Assembly: GCF_022354825.1 (NCBI RefSeq)
Contig: NZ_CP031168.1
Coordinates: 4,031,501 to 4,095,500 of the forward strand
Source: Paenibacillus sp. H1-7
GTDB lineage: Bacteria > Bacillota > Bacilli > Paenibacillales > NBRC-103111
Direction: 5' to 3'
Length of the DNA: 64,000 bases
The first letter of the stretch is position 1; every line of letters starts with the position of its first letter. Position numbers and translations under genes: made by a program. Positions 11,952-32,861 of the stretch are shown in pieces. The notes under the pieces are model-generated. The model made no database searches. It saw only the letters and a list, made by a program, of their open reading frames with translations, and had not been told where the DNA came from.

Positions 11952-12389
11952 TTGAAAATACGAAATTCAGCCAAAGCCATCATCATACATGATCAAAAGC
12001 TGCTTGTGACCAAGCTTGCGGATGAATCGGGCTTCTTCTATTTACTTCCCGGAGGGGGACAAGAGGCCGGAGAGAAGCTCCAAGACTGCCTCGTCCGAGA
12101 GTGCAGAGAAGAAACCGGTTATGAGATCGAGGTTCACGATCTGCTTTTTGTAAGGGAATGCTTTAAGGATGAAGGGATTCATAGAATCGAATTTATGTTT
12201 AAGGCTGAACTAGTGAATCTAAAGCATAAGGTACCATTCAACAGGGATGACGCTCAAGTAGGCGTAGAATGGATTAGCTTGGAAAACGTCCTGAATGAAC
12301 CTTTATTTCCCGTGGAGCTCCGACAACGCATAGCGGTGGCTTACAAAGAGGGACGGCAAGAGCGCGTTTATATAGGTGAAATAGAATGA
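11952..12389 (+). CDS. Nudix hydrolase
   Basis: A 145-residue Nudix protein. The Nudix box runs from GGGQEAGEKLQDCLVREC to REETGYE (residues ~29-56), matching G-x5-E-x7-REUxEExGU, so it should hydrolyse a nucleoside diphosphate linked to another moiety with Mg2+. Substrate is unknown. The start is TTG 11952, with GAGGTG about 11 nt upstream. It opens a compact run with the metallophosphoesterase (18-bp gap) and P-loop kinase genes. Confidence 0.85.
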   Translation: MKIRNSAKAIIIHDQKLLVTKLADESGFFYLLPGGGQEAGEKLQDCLVRECREETGYEIEVHDLLFVRECFKDEGIHRIEFMFKAELVNLKHKVPFNRDDAQVGVEWISLENVLNEPLFPVELRQRIAVAYKEGRQERVYIGEIE

Positions 12390-12407
12390 CGAGGTGATCC
12401 GATCCTG

Positions 12408-13157
12408 ATGCAAATAGCTATCATTACGGATGTGCATGGCAATTACCCGGCCTTGAAAGCGGTACTGGAGGATATCGAACGACGGAAGTCGATTTCCCAT
12501 ATCTACTGTCTTGGGGACATGATTGGTATTGGGCCATATACAAATGAAGTCCTTGAGATGATTTTTAGCCGGGACGATATGTCCGTCTTGTCGGGAAACC
12601 ATGAAGAAGCAGTTCTTCATATCTTAGCGGGCAAAGGAATACTGTCCGGGCATGAACAAGCTGCCAAGCATCATGAATGGATTGCGAGTCGATTGAATCC
12701 GGAATGGATTCCCAAGCTGCAGGCGCTGCCTGTATCTCTGGAATGGAAAGCAGAGGGCCATCAGATCTTGATGGTCCATTACCATAGGACAAACGATAAA
12801 CTCGATGCGATCGACAACGAACCCAGTGGAGACAAATTAGATACCCGTTATTTGAACTCAGGATATGATCTCGTTTGTTTCGGTCATCACCACCCGGTAC
12901 ATTATTTTAAGACCGACGCAAGGCTCTATTTAAACCCAGGTGCGTTAGGCTGTCATCATGAACCGATTGCGCGTTACGGCATTGTGGACCTGTCTGTGAA
13001 CCGTTTGGATCCTAGCTTAATAGAAGTGCCTTATGATAACACGGATTTTATACAATCCTATGAACGGCTGCAGGTGCCGGACCGCTCGTTTATTTTGAAT
13101 GTTTTTCATGGAAATCAGCATCTGGTACCGAAAGGCGGAGTGGCGCATGAGGAATGA
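12408..13157 (+). CDS. Calcineurin-like metallophosphoesterase (YfcE/MJ0936 type)
   Basis: A 249-residue phosphoesterase with the two-metal site motifs in order: ITDVHGNYPAL (D8, H10), CLGDMIGIGP (D35 region), SGNHEE (~62-67), then MVHYHR and FGHHHPVHY (~160-168), and NPGALG. This class cleaves phosphodiesters or phosphomonoesters in the cytoplasm. ATG 12408 has GAGGTG 11 nt upstream. Its 3' end overlaps the next start codon by 11 bp, suggesting translational coupling. Confidence 0.85.
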   Translation: MQIAIITDVHGNYPALKAVLEDIERRKSISHIYCLGDMIGIGPYTNEVLEMIFSRDDMSVLSGNHEEAVLHILAGKGILSGHEQAAKHHEWIASRLNPEWIPKLQALPVSLEWKAEGHQILMVHYHRTNDKLDAIDNEPSGDKLDTRYLNSGYDLVCFGHHHPVHYFKTDARLYLNPGALGCHHEPIARYGIVDLSVNRLDPSLIEVPYDNTDFIQSYERLQVPDRSFILNVFHGNQHLVPKGGVAHEE

Positions 13158-22169: not shown

Positions 22170-24464
22170 ATGCTAAGAGGGAAATATTTTCGCAACAGCC
22201 TTGCTTTGATTCTGGTTATTTCAAGCATTCCCGGTCTGATCGTCGGAGGAGTCATCTACGGGATCGCCGGCGGATGGCTGGAACAAGCGCTGCTCCAGCT
22301 GCACAAGAGCCAGATCGTGCAGAGAGCGTCCAACGTCGACGATCAATTCGCTTATATGGAGACGTCATTGGCCCATTGGGCGTTTGATCCGAAGTTCAAC
22401 AGCAACCTGTACGAAACGTTGTTTTACCGGGACTTTGAAATTGCCCGCGATATTACGAAGACGCTGAATGTCATGCAGGGCTCTACGCCGTTAGCCAAAA
22501 ATGTCGAGCTGTATTTAAGCGGTCCACAGTCAACGCGCTTCCATCCCGAGTATGATGCGGTAACCGATAAAGCGGTGGAGGCGATGTATCAGGACATCTT
22601 CACACATGACAATATGGCGTTCTGGATGCAGCTGGCCGCGGATCCTACGGATCTACAAAAGCAAAGCCTTGCGCTGGTCCACAAAATTCCCGGAGTCGAC
22701 ACCCACCCGTTCGGTGCTGTCATTGTCCGAATCAACGAAGACAAGGCGGCGAATCTGTTAACAACGTTAACGCCGTATAATGTTGGGGAAACGTTCGTTA
22801 TGCAAAGTGACGGGAACATGCTGCTGACCAGCTCCAAAAACTCGGATTCGGCATCCTTCAACGAAGTCCTGAAGCAGGAAGTCGTAAGTAGAGGCGGAAG
22901 GGAAGGCTCCTTCCTGTTCGATTACAACAAGAATATGTATACGGTTTCATACGGGACGCTTCAGCGCATAGGGACGGAGTGGATGTACGTTTCGGCATCA
23001 CCGATCAGCGCGATAACGGAGCCGGTCGATTTTGTGTCCAAGCTGATCTTGTCGGCCAGCGCGGCAGCGCTGCTGTTAGCTCTGATCTTATCCTGGTATG
23101 CTTCCCGGAAAATTTATTCGCCGGTACGCCGGCTTGTCGCACTGTTGAACGGACATCAAACAATTACGAATTCAGCGGCCGAGCATCACGATGAATTTAC
23201 GTTAATCGAGAAGCAATGGGTGCATCTATCACGGGAAAGCAACCTGCTGCAGTCGAAGCTTGAAGAGCAGCTAGAGCATGTCAGAGAAGGATTTTTGCTG
23301 CAGTTGATTCAGGGCTTCCTGTATTCTTACTCCGAGGAGGATTTGCGCGAACGAATGCGCGGCTACGGCTGGGAAGTGGACGGGAAGCAGTTTATCGTCA
23401 TGCACGTTCAACTAACGGGATTAGCGAACCTGGAGGGGCGTTTTACTCAGGGGGACGAGGGCTTGATCACCTTTGCCGCCGCGAATATGGTGGAAGAGCT
23501 GTCAAGCAGCCGCTTGTCCCAAGCAGATGTCATCAATTTTCACGATTTATCCTTAGGATTGCTGATCATGCTGCCGTCTGAGGAGGAGTATAAAGAGGCA
23601 CTTTATGAGCTTAGCAGCGATATTGTTAATGGCATTAATAAAATATTAAAGCTTCAAGTGTCGATTATTATTAGCAAGCCCGCCACCGCGATCGATCAAA
23701 TCCCTTCCTTCTATGAGGAAGCGAAGCAAGCCTCGGGCTACCGTAATTTCGTGAGCGAAAATCAAATTATGGATCTCGAATCGATCGATACGGCAAAGGA
23801 AACAAACGAGCAGCGGTACCCGTTTGCGCTGGAGAGGGAGATTGTCCAAGCGATTCGTACCGGTCAGCAGCCTGAAGCTGAAGCGCTCATCACCTCATTT
23901 CTTGATGCACTTCTGGAGCGGGGAGCCAAGGAGATGGAGGTTCAGCAGTCGATGCTGCAGCTGCTGTTCAGTATTTTCCACGCTATAAGACAGCTCGGAA
24001 TGGATCCGAATCAGTTGTTCGGGACCGCCAATATGTACGAGCAGTTCACGAGCTTACGGGAGCCCGACAAGATGCTTGGCTGGTTCAGCCACAAGATCAT
24101 CCGCCCCTTTGTTCGCGAATTGGAGGCAAGATCGGACGTTCAATTGAAAAAGGTCGTGGAAACCGCCAAAATCTATTTGCAGCAGCGCTACATGCAGGAA
24201 ATTTCTTTGGATACATGCGCGGATTATACCGGAATGAATGCCGTCGCATTAAGCAAGGCGTTTAAGCAGGTGACCGGTATTAATTTTATCGACTATTTGA
24301 CGGAGCTGCGCATGGATAAAGCGAAGGAGCTGCTTCGCGACACCGAGCATAAAATCAACGATATCGCGGTACAGGTTGGTTATCAGCACAGTTACTTCAA
24401 TCGCATATTCAAAAAGCATACGGGATTTACCCCGAGTCAATATCGGGATATGCACCGCATTTAA
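22170..24464 (+). CDS. Membrane-bound AraC-family regulator (YesN-like transcriptional sensor)
   Basis: A 764-residue one-component regulator of the type common in Paenibacillus: TM1 at ~10-32, an extracytoplasmic sensor domain to ~285 (WAFDPKFN, LYLSGPQS), TM2 at ~287-310, a cytoplasmic linker, and a C-terminal AraC double helix-turn-helix at ~665-764 (DTCADYTGMNAVALSKAFKQ; then NDIAVQVGYQHSYFNRIFKKHTG). It sits directly upstream of the sugar ABC operon and probably activates it in response to an external carbohydrate. No receiver domain is present. The start ATG 22170 follows AAAGGGAGG by 6 nt. Confidence 0.9.
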   Translation: MLRGKYFRNSLALILVISSIPGLIVGGVIYGIAGGWLEQALLQLHKSQIVQRASNVDDQFAYMETSLAHWAFDPKFNSNLYETLFYRDFEIARDITKTLNVMQGSTPLAKNVELYLSGPQSTRFHPEYDAVTDKAVEAMYQDIFTHDNMAFWMQLAADPTDLQKQSLALVHKIPGVDTHPFGAVIVRINEDKAANLLTTLTPYNVGETFVMQSDGNMLLTSSKNSDSASFNEVLKQEVVSRGGREGSFLFDYNKNMYTVSYGTLQRIGTEWMYVSASPISAITEPVDFVSKLILSASAAALLLALILSWYASRKIYSPVRRLVALLNGHQTITNSAAEHHDEFTLIEKQWVHLSRESNLLQSKLEEQLEHVREGFLLQLIQGFLYSYSEEDLRERMRGYGWEVDGKQFIVMHVQLTGLANLEGRFTQGDEGLITFAAANMVEELSSSRLSQADVINFHDLSLGLLIMLPSEEEYKEALYELSSDIVNGINKILKLQVSIIISKPATAIDQIPSFYEEAKQASGYRNFVSENQIMDLESIDTAKETNEQRYPFALEREIVQAIRTGQQPEAEALITSFLDALLERGAKEMEVQQSMLQLLFSIFHAIRQLGMDPNQLFGTANMYEQFTSLREPDKMLGWFSHKIIRPFVRELEARSDVQLKKVVETAKIYLQQRYMQEISLDTCADYTGMNAVALSKAFKQVTGINFIDYLTELRMDKAKELLRDTEHKINDIAVQVGYQHSYFNRIFKKHTGFTPSQYRDMHRI

Positions 24465-24631: not shown

Positions 24632-24724
24632 AAAAAAGTATTAAGCCTATTAAAAAAGTACTAGAGCCCAAAAAATCGCTTCCAAAAAAGTGTGGTTGCC
24701 GGAAAATAAGGCGGCGTATATGTT
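24632..24724 (+). promoter_or_regulatory. Triple AAAAAAGT array with adjacent promoter, permease operon
   Basis: AAAAAAGT occurs at 24632, 24652 and 24684 (offsets 20 and 32). The third copy ends 4 bp before TTGCCG (24696-24701), followed after 17 bp by TATGTT (24719-24724). The same layout occurs upstream of the lyase gene at 29997-30088. It looks like an activator-binding array for a class II promoter; the nearby AraC-type regulator is the obvious candidate. A fourth A-run (24670-24675, followed by TC) is degenerate. Confidence 0.65.
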
Positions 24725-24788
24725 GGATTTAGTAAGCGGTTACAATGCTGCGACAAGAGACATAGATCGAGAAAAAGGAGTGAGAGGA

Positions 24789-25757
24789 ATGGACAAAGTA
24801 TCGCGTGCAGAACAGCTCCCTACGGACGTTTCCGCAAGCGCAGCTCGCAAAAAGAACACGTTAATGAAACGAATTCTGCAGGATAAATATTTGCTGATGC
24901 TTCTGCTGCCCGGCTTGGCCTACTTCATTATTTTCAAGTATGTCCCTATGTGGGGAGTGCTGCTGGCGTTCAAAAATTATCAGCCGTTTCTCGGATTTTT
25001 CCAGAGCGAGTGGGTCGGCTTCGATAATTTCCGGCAATTTTTCGGGGACCCGATTTTTTTCCGGTTAATGAAAAACACGCTGCTCCTCGGTTTGTATGAC
25101 ATGGTATTTTTCTTCCCTGCTCCAATCATTCTGGCTTTGCTGCTCAACGAAGTCCGCATTTCGATCTACAAACGATTCATTCAAACAATGATTTACATCC
25201 CGCATTTTATCTCCATGGTTATCGTCGCAAGTATTACGTATTTGATGCTGACTACCGAAGGGGGCATCATTAACGAGCTGCTCGGCCAGGCTATCGGCCG
25301 CAAAATCGAATTCCTAACCAGTGAGGACTGGTTCAGGCCGCTAATCATTACCCAGAGCCTGTGGAAGGAAATGGGCTGGGGAACGATTATATTCCTCGCC
25401 GCGCTGGCCGGTGTAGATCAGGAGCAGTATGAAGCAGCCATCGTGGACGGTGCGAGCCGGTTTCGCCAGCTGTGGCACATTACGCTTCCGGCCATCCGAG
25501 GAACGATTATTGTCCTGCTTATCTTGCGCATGGGCAACTTCCTGGACCGCGGGTTCGAGCAAGTATTGCTGATGAGCAATGCTCTTAACCGCAATGTTGC
25601 CGAGGTGTTCGATACGTACGTGTATACGATAGGGATTACGCAAGGCGCATTCAGCTACAGCACGGCGGTCGGTTTATTCAAAGCAGTGATCGGGATCATC
25701 CTCGTGCTGTCATCCAACTATTTGGCCAAGAGAGCCGGACATTCCGGCATATTTTAG
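24789..25757 (+). CDS. Carbohydrate ABC transporter permease (LplB/YtcP-type)
   Basis: A 322-residue inner-membrane permease with six predicted helices. The N-terminal KYLLMLLLPGLAYFIIFKYV and LLAFKNYQPFLGFF are typical of LplB-family permeases, and the EAA loop reads EQYEAAIVDGASRFRQLWHI (residues ~214-233), the contact for a shared ATPase. ATG 24789 follows AAGGAG by 8 nt; the frame is open upstream to 24690 but that would begin inside the promoter. It is the first gene of a permease-permease-binding protein operon. No ATPase gene is encoded nearby, so an MsmX-type shared ATPase is likely. Confidence 0.92.
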   Translation: MDKVSRAEQLPTDVSASAARKKNTLMKRILQDKYLLMLLLPGLAYFIIFKYVPMWGVLLAFKNYQPFLGFFQSEWVGFDNFRQFFGDPIFFRLMKNTLLLGLYDMVFFFPAPIILALLLNEVRISIYKRFIQTMIYIPHFISMVIVASITYLMLTTEGGIINELLGQAIGRKIEFLTSEDWFRPLIITQSLWKEMGWGTIIFLAALAGVDQEQYEAAIVDGASRFRQLWHITLPAIRGTIIVLLILRMGNFLDRGFEQVLLMSNALNRNVAEVFDTYVYTIGITQGAFSYSTAVGLFKAVIGIILVLSSNYLAKRAGHSGIF

Positions 25758-25776
25758 ACCGAAGGAGGCTTGAGCC

Positions 25777-26652
25777 GTGAGACATAACACGTTAGGCGGT
25801 AAAATTTTCGACGTTGCCAACTACACGTTCCTTGGCCTGGTGGCCCTTAGTATGATTCTGCCGATCATGTATATCGTGGCCGGCTCGTTCGCTACCGAGA
25901 TTGAGCTGAGCAACCGCGCGTTCTTCCTCATTCCGAAGACGGTCACGTTGAACGCTTATGAGTACGTGTTTAAAGACAACGCGCTGCCGCGCAGCTTGCT
26001 TGTATCGGTGTTCGTCACCATAGCCGGTACGCTGGTCAATCTGTTCTTCACGTTCACGATGGCCTATGCATTATCCCGGCGCAATATGGTCGGACGCAAT
26101 ATTGTCATGAACATGGTCGTCTTCTCCATGCTGTTCAGCGGCGGCATCATTCCGACGTTTCTCGTTGTGAAGAGCATGGGACTGCTCAACTCCTACTTGT
26201 CTGTCATGATACCGACGGCGATCAGCGCATTCAATTTGATTGTCATCAAATCGTTCTTTCAAGACATCCCGAACGAGCTGATCGAATCGTCGAGAATCGA
26301 CGGCTGCACCGACCTCGGTGTTCTGTGGCGTATCGTGCTGCCGCTTTCCAAGCCGGTCATCGCAACGTTTGCGTTGTTTTACGCAGTCGGTCACTGGAAC
26401 GATTTCTTTAACGCGCTCCTCTACATTAGCGATGCCAAAAAATGGCCCATGCAGGTGCTGCTGCGCCAGCTGATCCTGCTCGCCTCCGGGTCGCTCGATA
26501 TGTCGACGATGGACCCCGAATACGTCAAGCCGCCGGACCAGTCCATCAAAATGGCCGTCATCGTCGTAGGGACGCTGCCTATACTGCTCGTCTACCCGTT
26601 CCTGCAAAAGCATTTTGCCAAAGGGGTACTGCTCGGCGCAGTAAAGGGCTGA
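25777..26652 (+). CDS. Carbohydrate ABC transporter permease (LplC/YesQ-type)
   Basis: A 291-residue second permease, 19 bp after the first. Landmarks are LSMILPIMYIVAGSF, the loop NELIESSRIDGCTDLGVLWR (residues ~168-187, EAA motif) and the C-terminal PILLVYPFLQKHFAKGVLLGAVKG (split here: PILLVYPFLQKHF, then AKGVLLGAVKG), which is nearly invariant in this family. Start codon GTG 25777 has AAGGAGG eight nt upstream. It forms a heterodimeric channel with the preceding permease. Confidence 0.92.
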   Translation: MRHNTLGGKIFDVANYTFLGLVALSMILPIMYIVAGSFATEIELSNRAFFLIPKTVTLNAYEYVFKDNALPRSLLVSVFVTIAGTLVNLFFTFTMAYALSRRNMVGRNIVMNMVVFSMLFSGGIIPTFLVVKSMGLLNSYLSVMIPTAISAFNLIVIKSFFQDIPNELIESSRIDGCTDLGVLWRIVLPLSKPVIATFALFYAVGHWNDFFNALLYISDAKKWPMQVLLRQLILLASGSLDMSTMDPEYVKPPDQSIKMAVIVVGTLPILLVYPFLQKHFAKGVLLGAVKG

Positions 26653-26775
26653 GGACGCTGCTACTCTATTGATTCAGGTTGATAATAGCCGGTGCTTATC
26701 CCCTTCAGAAGCGGTAAGCCGCCTGCGTATCATACAAGTTGTTCATTTCTGTGACAAGAAAAGGGAGGAACAAAC

Positions 26776-28320
26776 ATGAGATGGAATGTCAAAATGTCTA
26801 AAAGAACGGCGGCAGCAGCTGTTAGCATCGCCCTGCTAGCGAGTATATTTGCAGGCTGCAGCTCGGAAACGAAGCCGGCAGCACCGGCGGAAGGCGGCAC
26901 TCCGGCCAAAGAAGCTCCTTACAAAATTTCGATCATGATGAAAAGCTTCCAGAATGACGCGATTACGGCGGAAAGTAAAATTTGGAAAAAAGTAGAAGAG
27001 TACACGAATACGAAGATGGAAGTGCTGTTTACGCCGGACGCGGCTTATAACGACAAGCTGAATATTACGCTTGCTTCCGGTTCCATGCCTTCCGTTATTT
27101 TCACTGCCAACGCCAAGCTGCCTTCGATCGTTAATGCCATTAAAGGCGGGGCGTTCTGGGAGATCGGACCTTACTTGAAGGACTATCCGAACTTGCGCCA
27201 AATGAATACGACGATATTGAACAACACCTCGGTGAACGGAAAAACGTACGGCTTGTACACGGCAAGACCGTTAGGACGATTCGCGATTTCGTACCGCAAG
27301 GATTGGCTGCAAAGTGTCGGGCTGGCTGAGCCGAAAACACCGGAAGATTTTTATAACATGCTCAAAGCATTCAAGGAGAAGGACCCGGACAAAAACGGCA
27401 AAGACGATACGTACGGCATGGTAGTAACCAAATATTCCGGCCCTTGGGATATTATGCAAACGTGGTTCGGTGCTCCGAACAAATGGGGCGTCGACAAGGA
27501 CGGCAAGCTCATTCCCGCTCATTTGACCACGGAGTATATGGATGCGCTGAAATATTTCAAAAAGCTGTATGACGAAAAGCTGGTCAACCAGGACTTCGCC
27601 GTATACGATTCGGCCAAATGGAACGATCCGATCATTAACAATCAAGCGGGGGTAGCCGTCGACGTCGTGGACCGTTCTTATCAAATCGATGAGAAAATGA
27701 AGTCGGGCAATGTGAAGGGCGAGATGGACATCATCGGCGCAATCAATGGACCTAAGGGACCCGTTACCCCTGCGACGACAGGCTACGGCGGTATCTTCCT
27801 CATTTCCAAGACCGCGGTGAAGTCGGAAGCCGAGCTGCGCAAAGTGCTTAACTTCTTCGATAAAATCGACGATAAAGAATACCAGATCTTAATCTCATAC
27901 GGCCTCGAAGGCACGCATTATAAGGTGGAGGACGGCAAGCTCGTTACGATCTTGTCCTCCGACATGCCGCAAGCGCCGGATATTAACATCAAGAGCCTCA
28001 ACCAGCTGCTGGTCGGCGTGCCTAACGTGCTGGATACTGCCTTCAAAGCTGGTACTCCTCTGAGGGAGAAAGCGAACGTGGTGAAGGCAGCCAACGAAAA
28101 GATTGCGCTGGCAAATCCGGGTGAGCCGCTAATCTCTGCAACTTATACGCAAAAAGGAGCTCAGCTCGATCAGCAGGTCGAGGACGCGAGAATCAAGTTT
28201 ATCGTCGGCAAAATCGACGAGGCCGGCTTCAAGGCGGAGATGGAGCTGTGGAAGAAAAACGGCGGTACGGAATATATTAAGGAAATGAATGACGCCTATG
28301 CCGAAAGCAAGAAGAAATAA
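26776..28320 (+). CDS. Extracellular solute-binding lipoprotein of the sugar ABC transporter
   Basis: A 514-residue family 1 substrate-binding lipoprotein (LipO/YtcQ type). The signal peptide ends in lipobox SIFAGC (Cys28), followed by a Pro/Ala/Glu-rich linker. ISIMMKSFQNDAI opens the first lobe; KNGKDDTYGMVV is a calcium-loop-like motif common in this family. The size and operon partners fit importers for long sugars such as pectin or rhamnogalacturonan oligomers. A perfect terminator lies 14 bp downstream. Confidence 0.92.
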   Translation: MRWNVKMSKRTAAAAVSIALLASIFAGCSSETKPAAPAEGGTPAKEAPYKISIMMKSFQNDAITAESKIWKKVEEYTNTKMEVLFTPDAAYNDKLNITLASGSMPSVIFTANAKLPSIVNAIKGGAFWEIGPYLKDYPNLRQMNTTILNNTSVNGKTYGLYTARPLGRFAISYRKDWLQSVGLAEPKTPEDFYNMLKAFKEKDPDKNGKDDTYGMVVTKYSGPWDIMQTWFGAPNKWGVDKDGKLIPAHLTTEYMDALKYFKKLYDEKLVNQDFAVYDSAKWNDPIINNQAGVAVDVVDRSYQIDEKMKSGNVKGEMDIIGAINGPKGPVTPATTGYGGIFLISKTAVKSEAELRKVLNFFDKIDDKEYQILISYGLEGTHYKVEDGKLVTILSSDMPQAPDINIKSLNQLLVGVPNVLDTAFKAGTPLREKANVVKAANEKIALANPGEPLISATYTQKGAQLDQQVEDARIKFIVGKIDEAGFKAEMELWKKNGGTEYIKEMNDAYAESKKK

Positions 28321-28334
28321 GCGGTAAAAGCATG

Positions 28335-28376
28335 AAAAAACCAGTCTGCTCCGATGCCGGTGCAGACTGGTTTTTT
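28335..28376. terminator. Bidirectional terminator after the ABC operon
   Basis: AAAAAACCAGTCTGC pairs perfectly with TGCAGACTGGTTTTTT over a ~9-nt loop. Confidence 0.9.
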
Positions 28377-28389
28377 TGCCGTTCCGATA

Positions 28390-28659
28390 CTATATCATAT
28401 AATCGTCGTAATCTTTATCGCTTCTCGGCTTCCGTCTATGCAGGTACAAAGAGATCAGCAGGATGAGCACGAACAGAAGGTAATAAATGGCGCACTCGAC
28501 CCCATCGCGGGAATTCATATAAAAGATGATGGCAAAAGGGAGTGGGAACAACAGGGAAATCCAGATGATGTTCTTCAAGGCTGCACCTGCCTGCAAACGA
28601 AATTTGGTTCTAATGATATCACGAATCCTGCAGGAAATGAAGAACCGGCGGCGCTTCAA
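28390..28659 (-). CDS. Small two-helix membrane protein (hypothetical)
   Basis: An 89-residue minus-strand frame with two hydrophobic segments, IIWISLLFPLPFAIIFYM (~31-48) and CAIYYLLFVLILLISLYL (~56-73), a positively charged N-terminus and a highly charged tail (RRKPRSDKDYDDY). This is typical of a real small membrane protein and it converges on the shared terminator. The start is weak: TTG 28659 without a clear ribosome binding site, and the first internal ATG would remove helix one. No family recognised. Confidence 0.4.
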   Translation of the reverse strand: MKRRRFFISCRIRDIIRTKFRLQAGAALKNIIWISLLFPLPFAIIFYMNSRDGVECAIYYLLFVLILLISLYLHRRKPRSDKDYDDYMI

Positions 28660-28679
28660 ATCATGAAAAATGCTGTTGT

Positions 28680-28695
28680 CCTTGCCTAGGCAAGG
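28680..28695. repeat. Perfect 16-bp palindrome upstream of the small membrane protein gene
   Basis: CCTTGCCTAGGCAAGG is fully self-complementary. It lies 21 bp before the putative TTG start of the minus-strand gene, where an operator or hairpin could act. Confidence 0.45.
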
Positions 28696-29067
28696 TATCC
28701 TCTATGGCCGGTTACGTCCATATACCAGATCGAGCATACCGTCCTTCGGCGCAGATCAGGCTCCAGCGCAAACCGGATCCGGGAGTTCCTTGCGGAAGGG
28801 CTGTAACAGATGTTCATTTGGCTAAATGGCGAAACCAGAAGCAATGGCGCATCGTAAGTAGTTAGATGATCCCGGCCAGTTTACCTGGTTGTGACAAATG
28901 ATTGAATGTCTGACATCACTTGCACAGGGAAAGGGCGTCCGTAGCTGGGGCGGAAGTTTCCTAACGCATGCAAATCTGGTATGATTCCACATAGGAATGC
29001 GAGGCACTGCAGCCTCTATCGCTGAATCGAGTTCGCTCGAGAACAGATACATATTAAAGGAGCTATT
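28696..29067. other. Non-coding gap before the deacetylase gene
   Basis: No convincing gene was seen in these 372 bases. Near the end, TGGTATGAT (28977-28985) forms an extended -10 promoter with TTTCCT (28957-28962) 17 bp upstream, 82 bp before the deacetylase start. The remainder shows no clear structure. Confidence 0.5.
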
Positions 29068-29967
29068 ATGCGTAAACGAATCATCCTAATCAGTCTTGCA
29101 GTCATTATTTGTATCGGGGTATGGTTGGCGGTGGACAGCAGGTCAACCGGTTTCCGCAATCAGGTTGCCGTATTGACCTATCATCATGTCGATACGGTGG
29201 AATCAGAGTACACAATCTCTCCGGAGAGGTTAAGGGACCATCTCGAGGCTTTGAAGGCGAATCAGTTCAACGTTATCACCACAGAGCAATTCGTTGCCTT
29301 CCTGAAGGACGGCAAGCCGGTTCCGCCGAACGCCGTAGTCATTACGTTCGACGACGGTTACGAATCGTATTACCGTTATGCTTATCCTGAGCTTAAGAAG
29401 CAGGGGATGCCCGCCACCAACTTTCTCATTGTAAAATCCGTAGGAGACCGGTCGGCGGAAACGCCGTTCATGACCTGGGATGAAGTCAAGCAGATGGCGA
29501 AGGACGGCTTTGATTTTTATTCTCATACGTACGATGCTCATGGATTCGGCGTGGATGCTAAGGGCAAACAGCTGTCTCCGTTAACTCACCCTAACTGGTC
29601 GGATGCGTTAGGCCGCATGGAGACCGAAGAGGAATACAGCAGCAGAGTGCTGAACGATTTGACGCAAGCGGAAACGATTCTCCGACAGCAGCTGGGCAAT
29701 AAGCTATCCATCCTGTGCCTGCCGCACGGCCGGTATACCCAGTCGCTAATCGATATCGGGAATAAAGCGGGAATCCATTATTATTATACCGGTGATTATG
29801 GACTGAACAATCCAGGCGATGTTCTTGTCAAGCGAGTTACGGCCGGAGTGCCCACTTTAACCGGACAAGGGCTCGTCGATAAAATCAACAAGCAAACGAC
29901 AATGCTTGGCAAAGCCGAAAATGTAGTTAAAAACATCGTTTTACAGATCAGGTACCGTTATTTCTAA
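29068..29967 (+). CDS. Polysaccharide deacetylase (NodB homology domain), membrane-anchored
   Basis: A 299-residue carbohydrate esterase 4 protein with an N-terminal signal anchor (residues ~4-22). NodB motifs: VITFDDGYESYY (~90-101; catalytic Asp and metal-binding Asp), DFYSHTYDAHGFG (~150-162; His ligands), and LCLPHGRYTQS (~216-226). It would remove acetyl groups from cell-wall or plant polysaccharides outside the cell. Its location between the ABC operon and the oligogalacturonate lyase gene makes a pectin-related role possible, but cell-wall trimming is equally plausible. ATG 29068 follows AAAGGAG by 6 nt. Confidence 0.9.
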   Translation: MRKRIILISLAVIICIGVWLAVDSRSTGFRNQVAVLTYHHVDTVESEYTISPERLRDHLEALKANQFNVITTEQFVAFLKDGKPVPPNAVVITFDDGYESYYRYAYPELKKQGMPATNFLIVKSVGDRSAETPFMTWDEVKQMAKDGFDFYSHTYDAHGFGVDAKGKQLSPLTHPNWSDALGRMETEEEYSSRVLNDLTQAETILRQQLGNKLSILCLPHGRYTQSLIDIGNKAGIHYYYTGDYGLNNPGDVLVKRVTAGVPTLTGQGLVDKINKQTTMLGKAENVVKNIVLQIRYRYF

Positions 29968-29996
29968 CGGATATCCGCCATGTGACAAGCCTTTTC

Positions 29997-30088
29997 AAAA
30001 AAGTGCAAGACGGGAAATAAAGTGCTAGCCGCAATCAGGCCGTTTTCAAAAAAGTGAGATTGTCCGCAATCCCTTTATCCGGTACGCT
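29997..30088 (+). promoter_or_regulatory. Triple AAAAAAGT-like array with adjacent promoter, oligogalacturonate lyase gene
   Basis: AAAAAAGT at 29997, the variant AATAAAGT at 30016 and AAAAAAGT at 30048 (offsets 19 and 32). The last copy ends 4 bp before TTGTCC (30060-30065), followed after 17 bp by TACGCT (30083-30088). Layout and position match the array at 24632-24724, and both middle elements are followed by CTAG. Confidence 0.65.
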
Positions 30089-30125: not shown

Positions 30126-31316
30126 ATGAGTTCTTCTGGTAAAGGAAAGGTTTGGCCTGCAGAATGGAAAACGACGAAAGACCTGATTACAGGAATTCCG
30201 ATGCGTCAACTGACCAATTATTTGGCGCATAGCTTTCACCTTTATTTCACTAACAACGGCTGGTATGCTAATGGCAGCAAGCTGCTGTTCGGCTCGGACC
30301 GCAACAACAGCACGAATTTATTCAGCCTGGATTTGAATTCAGGGGAAATTACTCAATTAACGGATTACGCGCAGGATGCAGGTGTTGGAATCCAGCAAGC
30401 GTTTATTAACGCCAATGGATTGGAAGCTTATTTCTCCAAAGGCAAACAAATCATAGCGATTCATCTGCAAACGCTGGAGGAAAAGGTGCTGTATCAAGCG
30501 CCGGAAGGGTTTCTCTTAGGCAATCTGAGCAGCACGTCGGATGGAGTCTGGCTGTGCACTTGTGTGAAGGAAGACTTGTCTGACCGGATCCCTACTTCTC
30601 TTGGTGCGGGATATATCGGGTTCGAGGAGACGGCGAGAGCGAAGCCTCATTGCAAGATCGTGAAGATACCTACCGCAGGAGGAGAGTCCCAAGTCATCCA
30701 TGAGGATAAGGTATGGATCGGCCATGTCAATACTTCGCCGACGCAGCCGCATCTGCTGAGCTTCTGTCATGAAGGTCCGTGGGATCTGGTGGACCATCGG
30801 ATTTGGTGTCTCAATATGGAGACCGGAGAGCATTGGAAAATTCGTCCTTCCGAAGATAATGTGTTCGTAGGACATGAGTACTGGCATGAAGACGGCGTGA
30901 CCATCGGCTACCATGGCTATACGGAGTCGCTTCACAATAAAGACGGCAAGTTCATCGGCTCGATTAAGTATGACAATACGGACAAAGCCGAGAGCGCGTT
31001 TCCTTTTCAAAATATGCACGTCCATTCCAATGATGCCAGCCTGATTGTGGGCGATGGACAGCAAACAAGCGCTTATCACGGCGCACAGTATCAGGACACC
31101 GTCTGTCTGTGGAAACGCAGAGAAGACGGCACGATGGAAGGTCCTCGTATTTTGTGCAGACACCGCGGAAGCTTTCAGGCGCAGAAGCTGCACGTTCATC
31201 CGAGATTTAGCCCTGACGGCAGCAAGGTGTTGTTTACCAGCGACATGACCGGCTATGGCAACTTGTATTTGGTGGATGTCCCCGACTTTGAATCTTTGCC
31301 TATACAGCCGGAGTAA
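30126..31316 (+). CDS. Oligogalacturonate lyase (PL22 type)
   Basis: A 396-residue cytoplasmic seven-bladed propeller-type protein without a signal peptide. The N-terminus TGIPMRQLTNYLAHSFHLYF and NNGWYANGSKLLFGSDRN, together with CHEGPWDLVDHRIWCLN and VGHEYWHEDG, fit the family of oligogalacturonate lyases that cleave unsaturated digalacturonate to 4-deoxy-L-threo-5-hexosulose uronate using Mn2+ bound by histidines. ATG 30126 has GGGG about 8 nt upstream. It is monocistronic with its own terminator and shares a promoter layout with the sugar ABC operon, which suggests that operon imports pectin oligomers. Confidence 0.85.
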   Translation: MSSSGKGKVWPAEWKTTKDLITGIPMRQLTNYLAHSFHLYFTNNGWYANGSKLLFGSDRNNSTNLFSLDLNSGEITQLTDYAQDAGVGIQQAFINANGLEAYFSKGKQIIAIHLQTLEEKVLYQAPEGFLLGNLSSTSDGVWLCTCVKEDLSDRIPTSLGAGYIGFEETARAKPHCKIVKIPTAGGESQVIHEDKVWIGHVNTSPTQPHLLSFCHEGPWDLVDHRIWCLNMETGEHWKIRPSEDNVFVGHEYWHEDGVTIGYHGYTESLHNKDGKFIGSIKYDNTDKAESAFPFQNMHVHSNDASLIVGDGQQTSAYHGAQYQDTVCLWKRREDGTMEGPRILCRHRGSFQAQKLHVHPRFSPDGSKVLFTSDMTGYGNLYLVDVPDFESLPIQPE

Positions 31317-32228: not shown

Positions 32229-32861
32229 ATGGAATTACAGCTGGCATTAGATCTTGTGGATATTCCTCAGGCGAAGGAATTGGTCAAGGAAGTAGCGGAA
32301 TATATCGATATAGTTGAAATCGGCACACCGGTTGTCATTAACGAAGGATTGCGTGCGGTCAAAGAATTGAAGGAAGCCTTTCCTTCCTTGAAAGTACTGG
32401 CCGATCTGAAAATTATGGATGCGGGTGGCTATGAAATTATGAAAGCTTCCGAAGCCGGAGCGGATATTATCACCGTGCTCGGCGCAACCGACGATATGAC
32501 GATTAAAGGTGCCGTTGAAGAAGCGCGCAAACAAAATAAGAAAATTATGGTCGACATGATCAATGTAAAAAATATCGAGCAGCGCGCACAAGAGATCGAT
32601 GCGTTGGGAGTAGATTATATATGCGTGCATACCGGATACGACCTTCAAGCCGTTGGCAAAAATTCCTTCGATGAGCTGCTAACGATCAAGCAGGTGGTCA
32701 AAAATGCTAAAACCGCGATTGCCGGAGGCATCAAGCTAGGCACATTGCCGGAGGTTATCAAGGCACAGCCGGATCTGGTTATTGTGGGCGGTGGAATTAC
32801 CGGGCAGCAGGACAAACGAGCGGTAGCAGCAGAAATGCAAAAAATGATCAAGGCAGGCTAA
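32229..32861 (+). CDS. hxlA: 3-hexulose-6-phosphate synthase
   Basis: A 210-residue TIM-barrel aldolase of the orotidine-5-phosphate decarboxylase suprafamily. LALDLVDIPQA (residues ~5-15) and VLADLKIMDAGGYE (~55-68, the D-x-K-x-x-D active site) are diagnostic, and IAGGIKLGTLPEV and VGGGIT bind phosphate. It condenses formaldehyde with ribulose 5-phosphate. The next gene, 4 bp downstream, encodes the isomerase that completes the RuMP formaldehyde-fixing reaction. In non-methylotrophs this pair detoxifies formaldehyde. ATG 32229 follows GGGAGTGAG by 7 nt. Confidence 0.95.
   Translation: MELQLALDLVDIPQAKELVKEVAEYIDIVEIGTPVVINEGLRAVKELKEAFPSLKVLADLKIMDAGGYEIMKASEAGADIITVLGATDDMTIKGAVEEARKQNKKIMVDMINVKNIEQRAQEIDALGVDYICVHTGYDLQAVGKNSFDELLTIKQVVKNAKTAIAGGIKLGTLPEVIKAQPDLVIVGGGITGQQDKRAVAAEMQKMIKAG

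Follow-up and report, generated by a model that had tools for sequence, protein, structure and literature searches.

Matching triple-repeat arrays at two promoters of a putative pectin-oligomer locus in Paenibacillus

The locus and its two promoter arrays

We analyzed a 64,000-nucleotide stretch of the Paenibacillus sp. H1-7 genome, referred to here as the window. One group of genes in it comprises, in order, an AraC-family regulator (22170), two ABC permeases, a solute-binding protein, a polysaccharide deacetylase-like gene, and an oligogalacturonate lyase (OGL) (Table 1). The closest PDB matches of the solute-binding protein are the extracellular solute-binding proteins 5xs8, 5gx8, and 5gub, together with AlgQ1/AlgQ2. 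AlgQ1 and AlgQ2 bind alginate oligouronides, and the kinship is consistent with uptake of uronate oligomers. The locus has the gene content expected of a pectin-oligomer regulon, and it is this gene content that points to the probable transported substrate. A gene for 3-hexulose-6-phosphate synthase (HxlA) lies just 3' of the pectin region, at 32229-32861.

Table 1. Coordinates of genes, promoters, and repeat copies in the window
Feature	Position	Strand	Basis
AraC-family regulator, two hydrophobic (membrane) segments, presumed cognate activator	22170..24464	+	Pfam GGDEF_2 388-521, HTH_18 684-760
Distal copy AAAAAAGT, transporter promoter	24632..24639	+	Sequence; conserved in orthologues
Middle copy AAAAAAGT, transporter promoter	24652..24659	+	Sequence; conserved in orthologues
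Proximal copy AAAAAAGT, transporter promoter	24684..24691	+	Starts 12 bp before -35; offset invariant, 17 promoters
Transporter promoter: -35 TTGCCG 24696-24701, 17-bp spacer, -10 TATGTT 24719-24724	24696..24724	+	Sequence
Candidate CcpA site	24731..24745	-	Exact match to cre consensus (TTGTAACCGCTTACT), just past transporter -10
ABC sugar permease 1 (LplB-type)	24789..25757	+	Pfam BPD_transp_1
ABC sugar permease 2	25777..26652	+	Pfam BPD_transp_1
Solute-binding protein, kin to AlgQ1/AlgQ2-type oligosaccharide binders	26776..28320	+	PDB sequence search
Distal copy AAAAAAGT, OGL promoter	29997..30004	+	Sequence; conserved in orthologues
Middle copy AATAAAGT (one mismatch), OGL promoter	30016..30023	+	Sequence; conserved in orthologues
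Proximal copy AAAAAAGT, OGL promoter	30048..30055	+	Starts 12 bp before -35; conserved in orthologues
OGL promoter: -35 TTGTCC 30060-30065, 17-bp spacer, -10 TACGCT 30083-30088	30060..30088	+	Sequence
Oligogalacturonate lyase (OGL), PL22 family	30126..31316	+	Pfam PF14583, E 7e-46

The 22170 protein ends in a double helix-turn-helix that matches HTH_18 (E 1e-22) and HTH_AraC (E 9e-14) in Pfam, and its closest PDB chains are AraC-type domains. By sequence it belongs to the AraC/XylS family. Hydrophobic segments lie near residues 7-34 and 285-312, and an AlphaFold model places strands 112-278 between the helices, albeit at low confidence (mean pLDDT only 61). This architecture fits the YesS-like membrane AraC sensors, in which two membrane segments surround a predicted outside domain and the AraC domain is cytoplasmic. 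The description of 22170 as a membrane AraC protein in an earlier note on this DNA is borne out by the two hydrophobic segments and the AraC DNA-binding domain.

Three repeat copies precede both the transporter operon and OGL. Their coordinates and spacings, as well as the -35 and -10 boxes given in the earlier note, were all correct when we re-read the sequence. The same note had each middle copy running into CTAG; the letters are present in the window, but only C/T-W-A is kept across orthologues, and the extension was dropped from the motif for want of conservation. We also rejected an AAAAAA run near 24670 as a fourth copy, because the GT is missing and orthologues do not retain the run as such.

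The single word AAAAAAGT is mildly enriched in the window (10 occurrences against 3.55 expected). When we searched for triple arrays with at most one mismatch per copy and distances of 19-20 and 31-32 bp, the window contained exactly two, those of the transporter and OGL promoters. Simulations with Markov orders 1, 3, and 5 or with local intergenic composition, 16 Mb in all, produced no triple array of the same geometry. The triple geometry is beyond chance. Its layout, with direct repeats about two helical turns apart and adjoining the -35 box, is the one expected of a putative AraC-type tandem-repeat operator.

The sequence at 24731-24745 is possibly a catabolite repression site. Only 2 of 11 transporter promoters, from the window genome and G002, carry an exact match to the cre consensus WTGNAANCGNWNNCW there. 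One-mismatch versions of cre overlap the proximal copy in six other genomes.

Conservation of the array across the genus

We searched 12 genomes of the same genus in addition to the window's own (G000). Eleven of the 13 contain an orthologue of the regulator (at least 63% identity) and orthologous permeases. Across these 11 species, all 17 promoters carry three copies at distances of 19-20 and 31-32 bp, in a scan that covered 17-21 bp for the first distance and 31-32 bp only for the second. The last copy starts exactly 12 bp before the TTG of the -35 box in 17/17 promoters, and the -35 and -10 boxes are 17 bp apart in every one. Between the middle and proximal copies, only the closest transporter promoters share a well-conserved spacer; in the others it has diverged. 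The earlier note had made conservation of the array and its spacing in orthologous loci its touchstone, and both are kept at both promoters.

The orthologous promoters define a half-site of approximately AAARAAAGTNYWA. Conserved positions include the GT that follows the A-run (G at 1.4 bits, T at 1.9 bits) and an A four bases later, and many copies have G, T, or C within the A-run. The degenerate copies are the distal one in G001, G004, and G010 and the middle one in G006. An additional upstream AAAAAAGT in G007, G009, and G011 was excluded from the array, as its spacing varies (46-49 bp).

OGL has a separate promoter in six species, and an array is present at each. Five of these (G000, G002, G007, G009, and G011) have OGL in the same neighborhood as the transporter, with arrays at both promoters. 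Extra sequence separates the deacetylase gene from OGL in G007 and G009, yet the array stands directly before OGL. In G007 this sequence includes two more binding-protein-like genes. G006 has OGL and the transporter on separate contigs; the 14 kb upstream of OGL contain no transporter, and the OGL array is present. The other arrangement is found in G001, G003, G004, G008, and G010, where a single array stands before one operon in which OGL comes immediately after the gene for the binding protein. The coupling of import to cleavage put forward in the earlier note gains independent support from these five genomes, in which OGL lies inside the transporter operon.

We searched whole genomes with a sequence-only profile built from nine transporter promoters of nine other genomes, leaving out the window genome, G006, and all OGL promoters. 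In the 8.4-Mb window genome, the two best matches were the transporter promoter (E 2.8e-14) and, after it, the OGL promoter (2.2e-8); the third match had an E of 0.004. The two highest ranks in G006 were likewise its transporter (1.1e-12) and OGL (1.6e-5) promoters, on different contigs.

Proposed assignment of the arrays to regulator 22170

We consider it quite probable that both arrays are operators of 22170, the two-transmembrane AraC-family regulator, and that it activates both promoters; its binding, inducer, and activating role are what we infer. Its extracellular signal could be an oligouronide derived from pectin, sensed by the regulator itself or by way of the binding protein. The half-sites, which at about two and three helical turns apart all face the same side of the helix, would then be occupied by the regulator's DNA-binding domains. 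With its start 12 bp from a weak -35 box, the proximal half-site would overlap the -35 region and might recruit RNA polymerase in the way of class II AraC-family activators. Import by the permeases and binding protein and intracellular cleavage by OGL would be switched on together.

The earlier note's assignment of the arrays to 22170 is likely, as adjacency and co-occurrence across the 13 genomes both argue for it. A strong array (E <= 1e-10) is present in 11/11 genus genomes with a regulator orthologue. None was found at that threshold in G005 and G012 (best ~4e-8 and ~7e-8), where the best relatives of 22170 are 42% and 46% identical, respectively. In most loci the permease gene comes directly after the regulator gene. 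Counting against the assignment, ~8 kb separates the regulator from the operon in G003 and G008. For the orthologues in G003, G004, and G008, no array lies within 1.5 kb, owing to displacement of the regulator or its position at a contig end; the arrays are found at the operon instead. Since orthologues of regulator, transporter, and array occur together, co-occurrence alone does not single out the regulator.

The arrays might be AraC-type operators bound by a paralogue, instead of or besides 22170. At E <= 1e-100, 22170 has six further relatives encoded in the window genome, related arrays adjoin several paralogous AraC regulators of pectin-related genes in the same family, and cross-binding is made conceivable by the degenerate arrays that precede genes of other regulators. 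We regard this reading as unlikely, given that every strong array belongs to a genome with a 22170 orthologue and usually adjoins the orthologue's gene. Among 67 AraC loci, only orthologue loci scored above 40 bits (45-65), whereas paralogue loci reached 26 bits at most. Among paralogues, identity in the DNA-binding domain predicts the array score weakly (rho 0.22, P 0.10), and the relationship was therefore not used as proof of a cognate pair.

Two further explanations dispense with shared specific regulation. As A6 runs about two and three helical turns apart adjoining a -35 box, the copies resemble phased A-tracts that bend DNA or UP-elements for RNA polymerase. That they act in this way with no specific regulator is very improbable: the conserved GT and later A are not needed for bending, other bases interrupt the A-run in many copies, and the arrays track the orthologues of one regulator. 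The OGL promoter could instead be a recent copy of the transporter promoter, ~5.4 kb away and of the same layout, alike by descent without common control. We give this almost no credence, as copies and spacing are kept while spacers have diverged in the six species with a separate OGL promoter, one of which (G006) has kept the array with OGL unlinked from the transporter.

Paralogous regulators and known systems

The motif is not private to 22170, and degenerate versions of it belong to paralogous regulators. Second-tier matches in the genus and family precede paralogous transporter operons and genes for GH88, for PL11 and PcRGLX-like rhamnogalacturonan lyases, for GH106 rhamnosidase-like proteins, and for GH42 and GDSL esterase. 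Weak arrays in the window genome precede two PL11 genes (101433 and 6479539) and the GH88 gene of a paralogous cluster (2601172). This cluster (L156; G000 contig 1, 2598000-2613000) contains GH88, a membrane AraC protein (~51% identical), permeases, and a binding protein, with weak arrays before GH88, a permease gene, and a downstream gene.

Similar sites were seen elsewhere. Two loci of P. alginolyticus (L186 and L187; G013, contig C55, ~15-44 kb) have five degenerate arrays within ~30 kb, before GH88, GDSL esterase, PcRGLX-type lyase, and transporter genes, making up a pectin/rhamnogalacturonan cluster with repeated operator-like sites. Array-like sites of 33-35 bits precede a methyltransferase-like gene with no obvious link to pectin in G010 (L144, called by Pfam) and G004 (L146, called by sequence likeness). 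A contig scan for the regulator gave one locus, also in P. alginolyticus (L162), whose orthologue is 57% identical and has no transporter adjoining. Sequence after this orthologue (12290-12800), near the contig end, tentatively resembles the start of a group II intron (GTGCG...).

These matches suggest an operator style common to a clade of paralogous regulators, within which the two strong arrays look like the private set of one regulator sharing that half-site style. More speculatively, a clade of membrane AraC sensors may use one operator grammar (half-sites of an A-run plus GT, distances of 19-20 and ~32 bp, and a last copy fixed 12 bp before the -35 box) across paralogous pectin and rhamnogalacturonan regulons. 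It is conceivable, though we hold it only tentatively, that the paralogues cross-talk or form a family-wide pectin-responsive network.

Genomes of the Paenibacillus type contain LplB-type transporters by the dozen; membrane AraC sensors accompany many of them, and the operator is known for few. A well-defined putative operator of strict geometry offers a handle for assigning targets and predicting substrates. The pair of arrays also provides a way to test by what means an AraC activator tethered to the membrane gains access to two promoters.

No description of the array motif was found in the literature searched, which did not extend to the RhgR regulon paper. Class II activation by AraC, RhaS, and MelR of E. 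coli involves a promoter-proximal direct-repeat half-site that adjoins the -35 box. The arrays described here share the half-site beside the -35 box. AraC, RhaS, and MelR are soluble sugar-binding regulators, whereas 22170 combines two membrane segments with a presumed sensor outside the cell.

RhgR (YesS) and RhaR are described as specialized regulators of rhamnogalacturonan and rhamnose genes in Bacillales, and the Bacillales AraC-family L-rhamnose regulators are assigned direct-repeat motifs with a 21-bp periodicity (PMC3870299). Unlike these, and with RhgR compared by its description, the present arrays combine a distance of 19-20 bp with a third copy at 31-32 bp, and the pathway is that of oligogalacturonate, not rhamnose. 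A further parallel comes from Caldicellulosiruptor bescii, a distant relative of the Paenibacillus host. Predictions for that organism give its local AraC-family regulators PecR, PecR2, and HemR control over pectin lyases and ABC transporter operons for pectin oligosaccharides; AraC sites there are widely spaced tandem repeats that lie upstream of the promoter and were interpreted as activator sites (PMC8579813). Our locus resembles these systems in its local AraC-family regulator, pectin-oligomer genes, and upstream tandem repeats; compared by description, the published sites consist of two elements and a linker, whereas here there are three copies at a fixed offset from the -35 box (PMC8579813). 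AraC-family regulators with tandem-repeat operators are already known, and the present case joins them with three copies, a strict geometry, and two promoters per genome.
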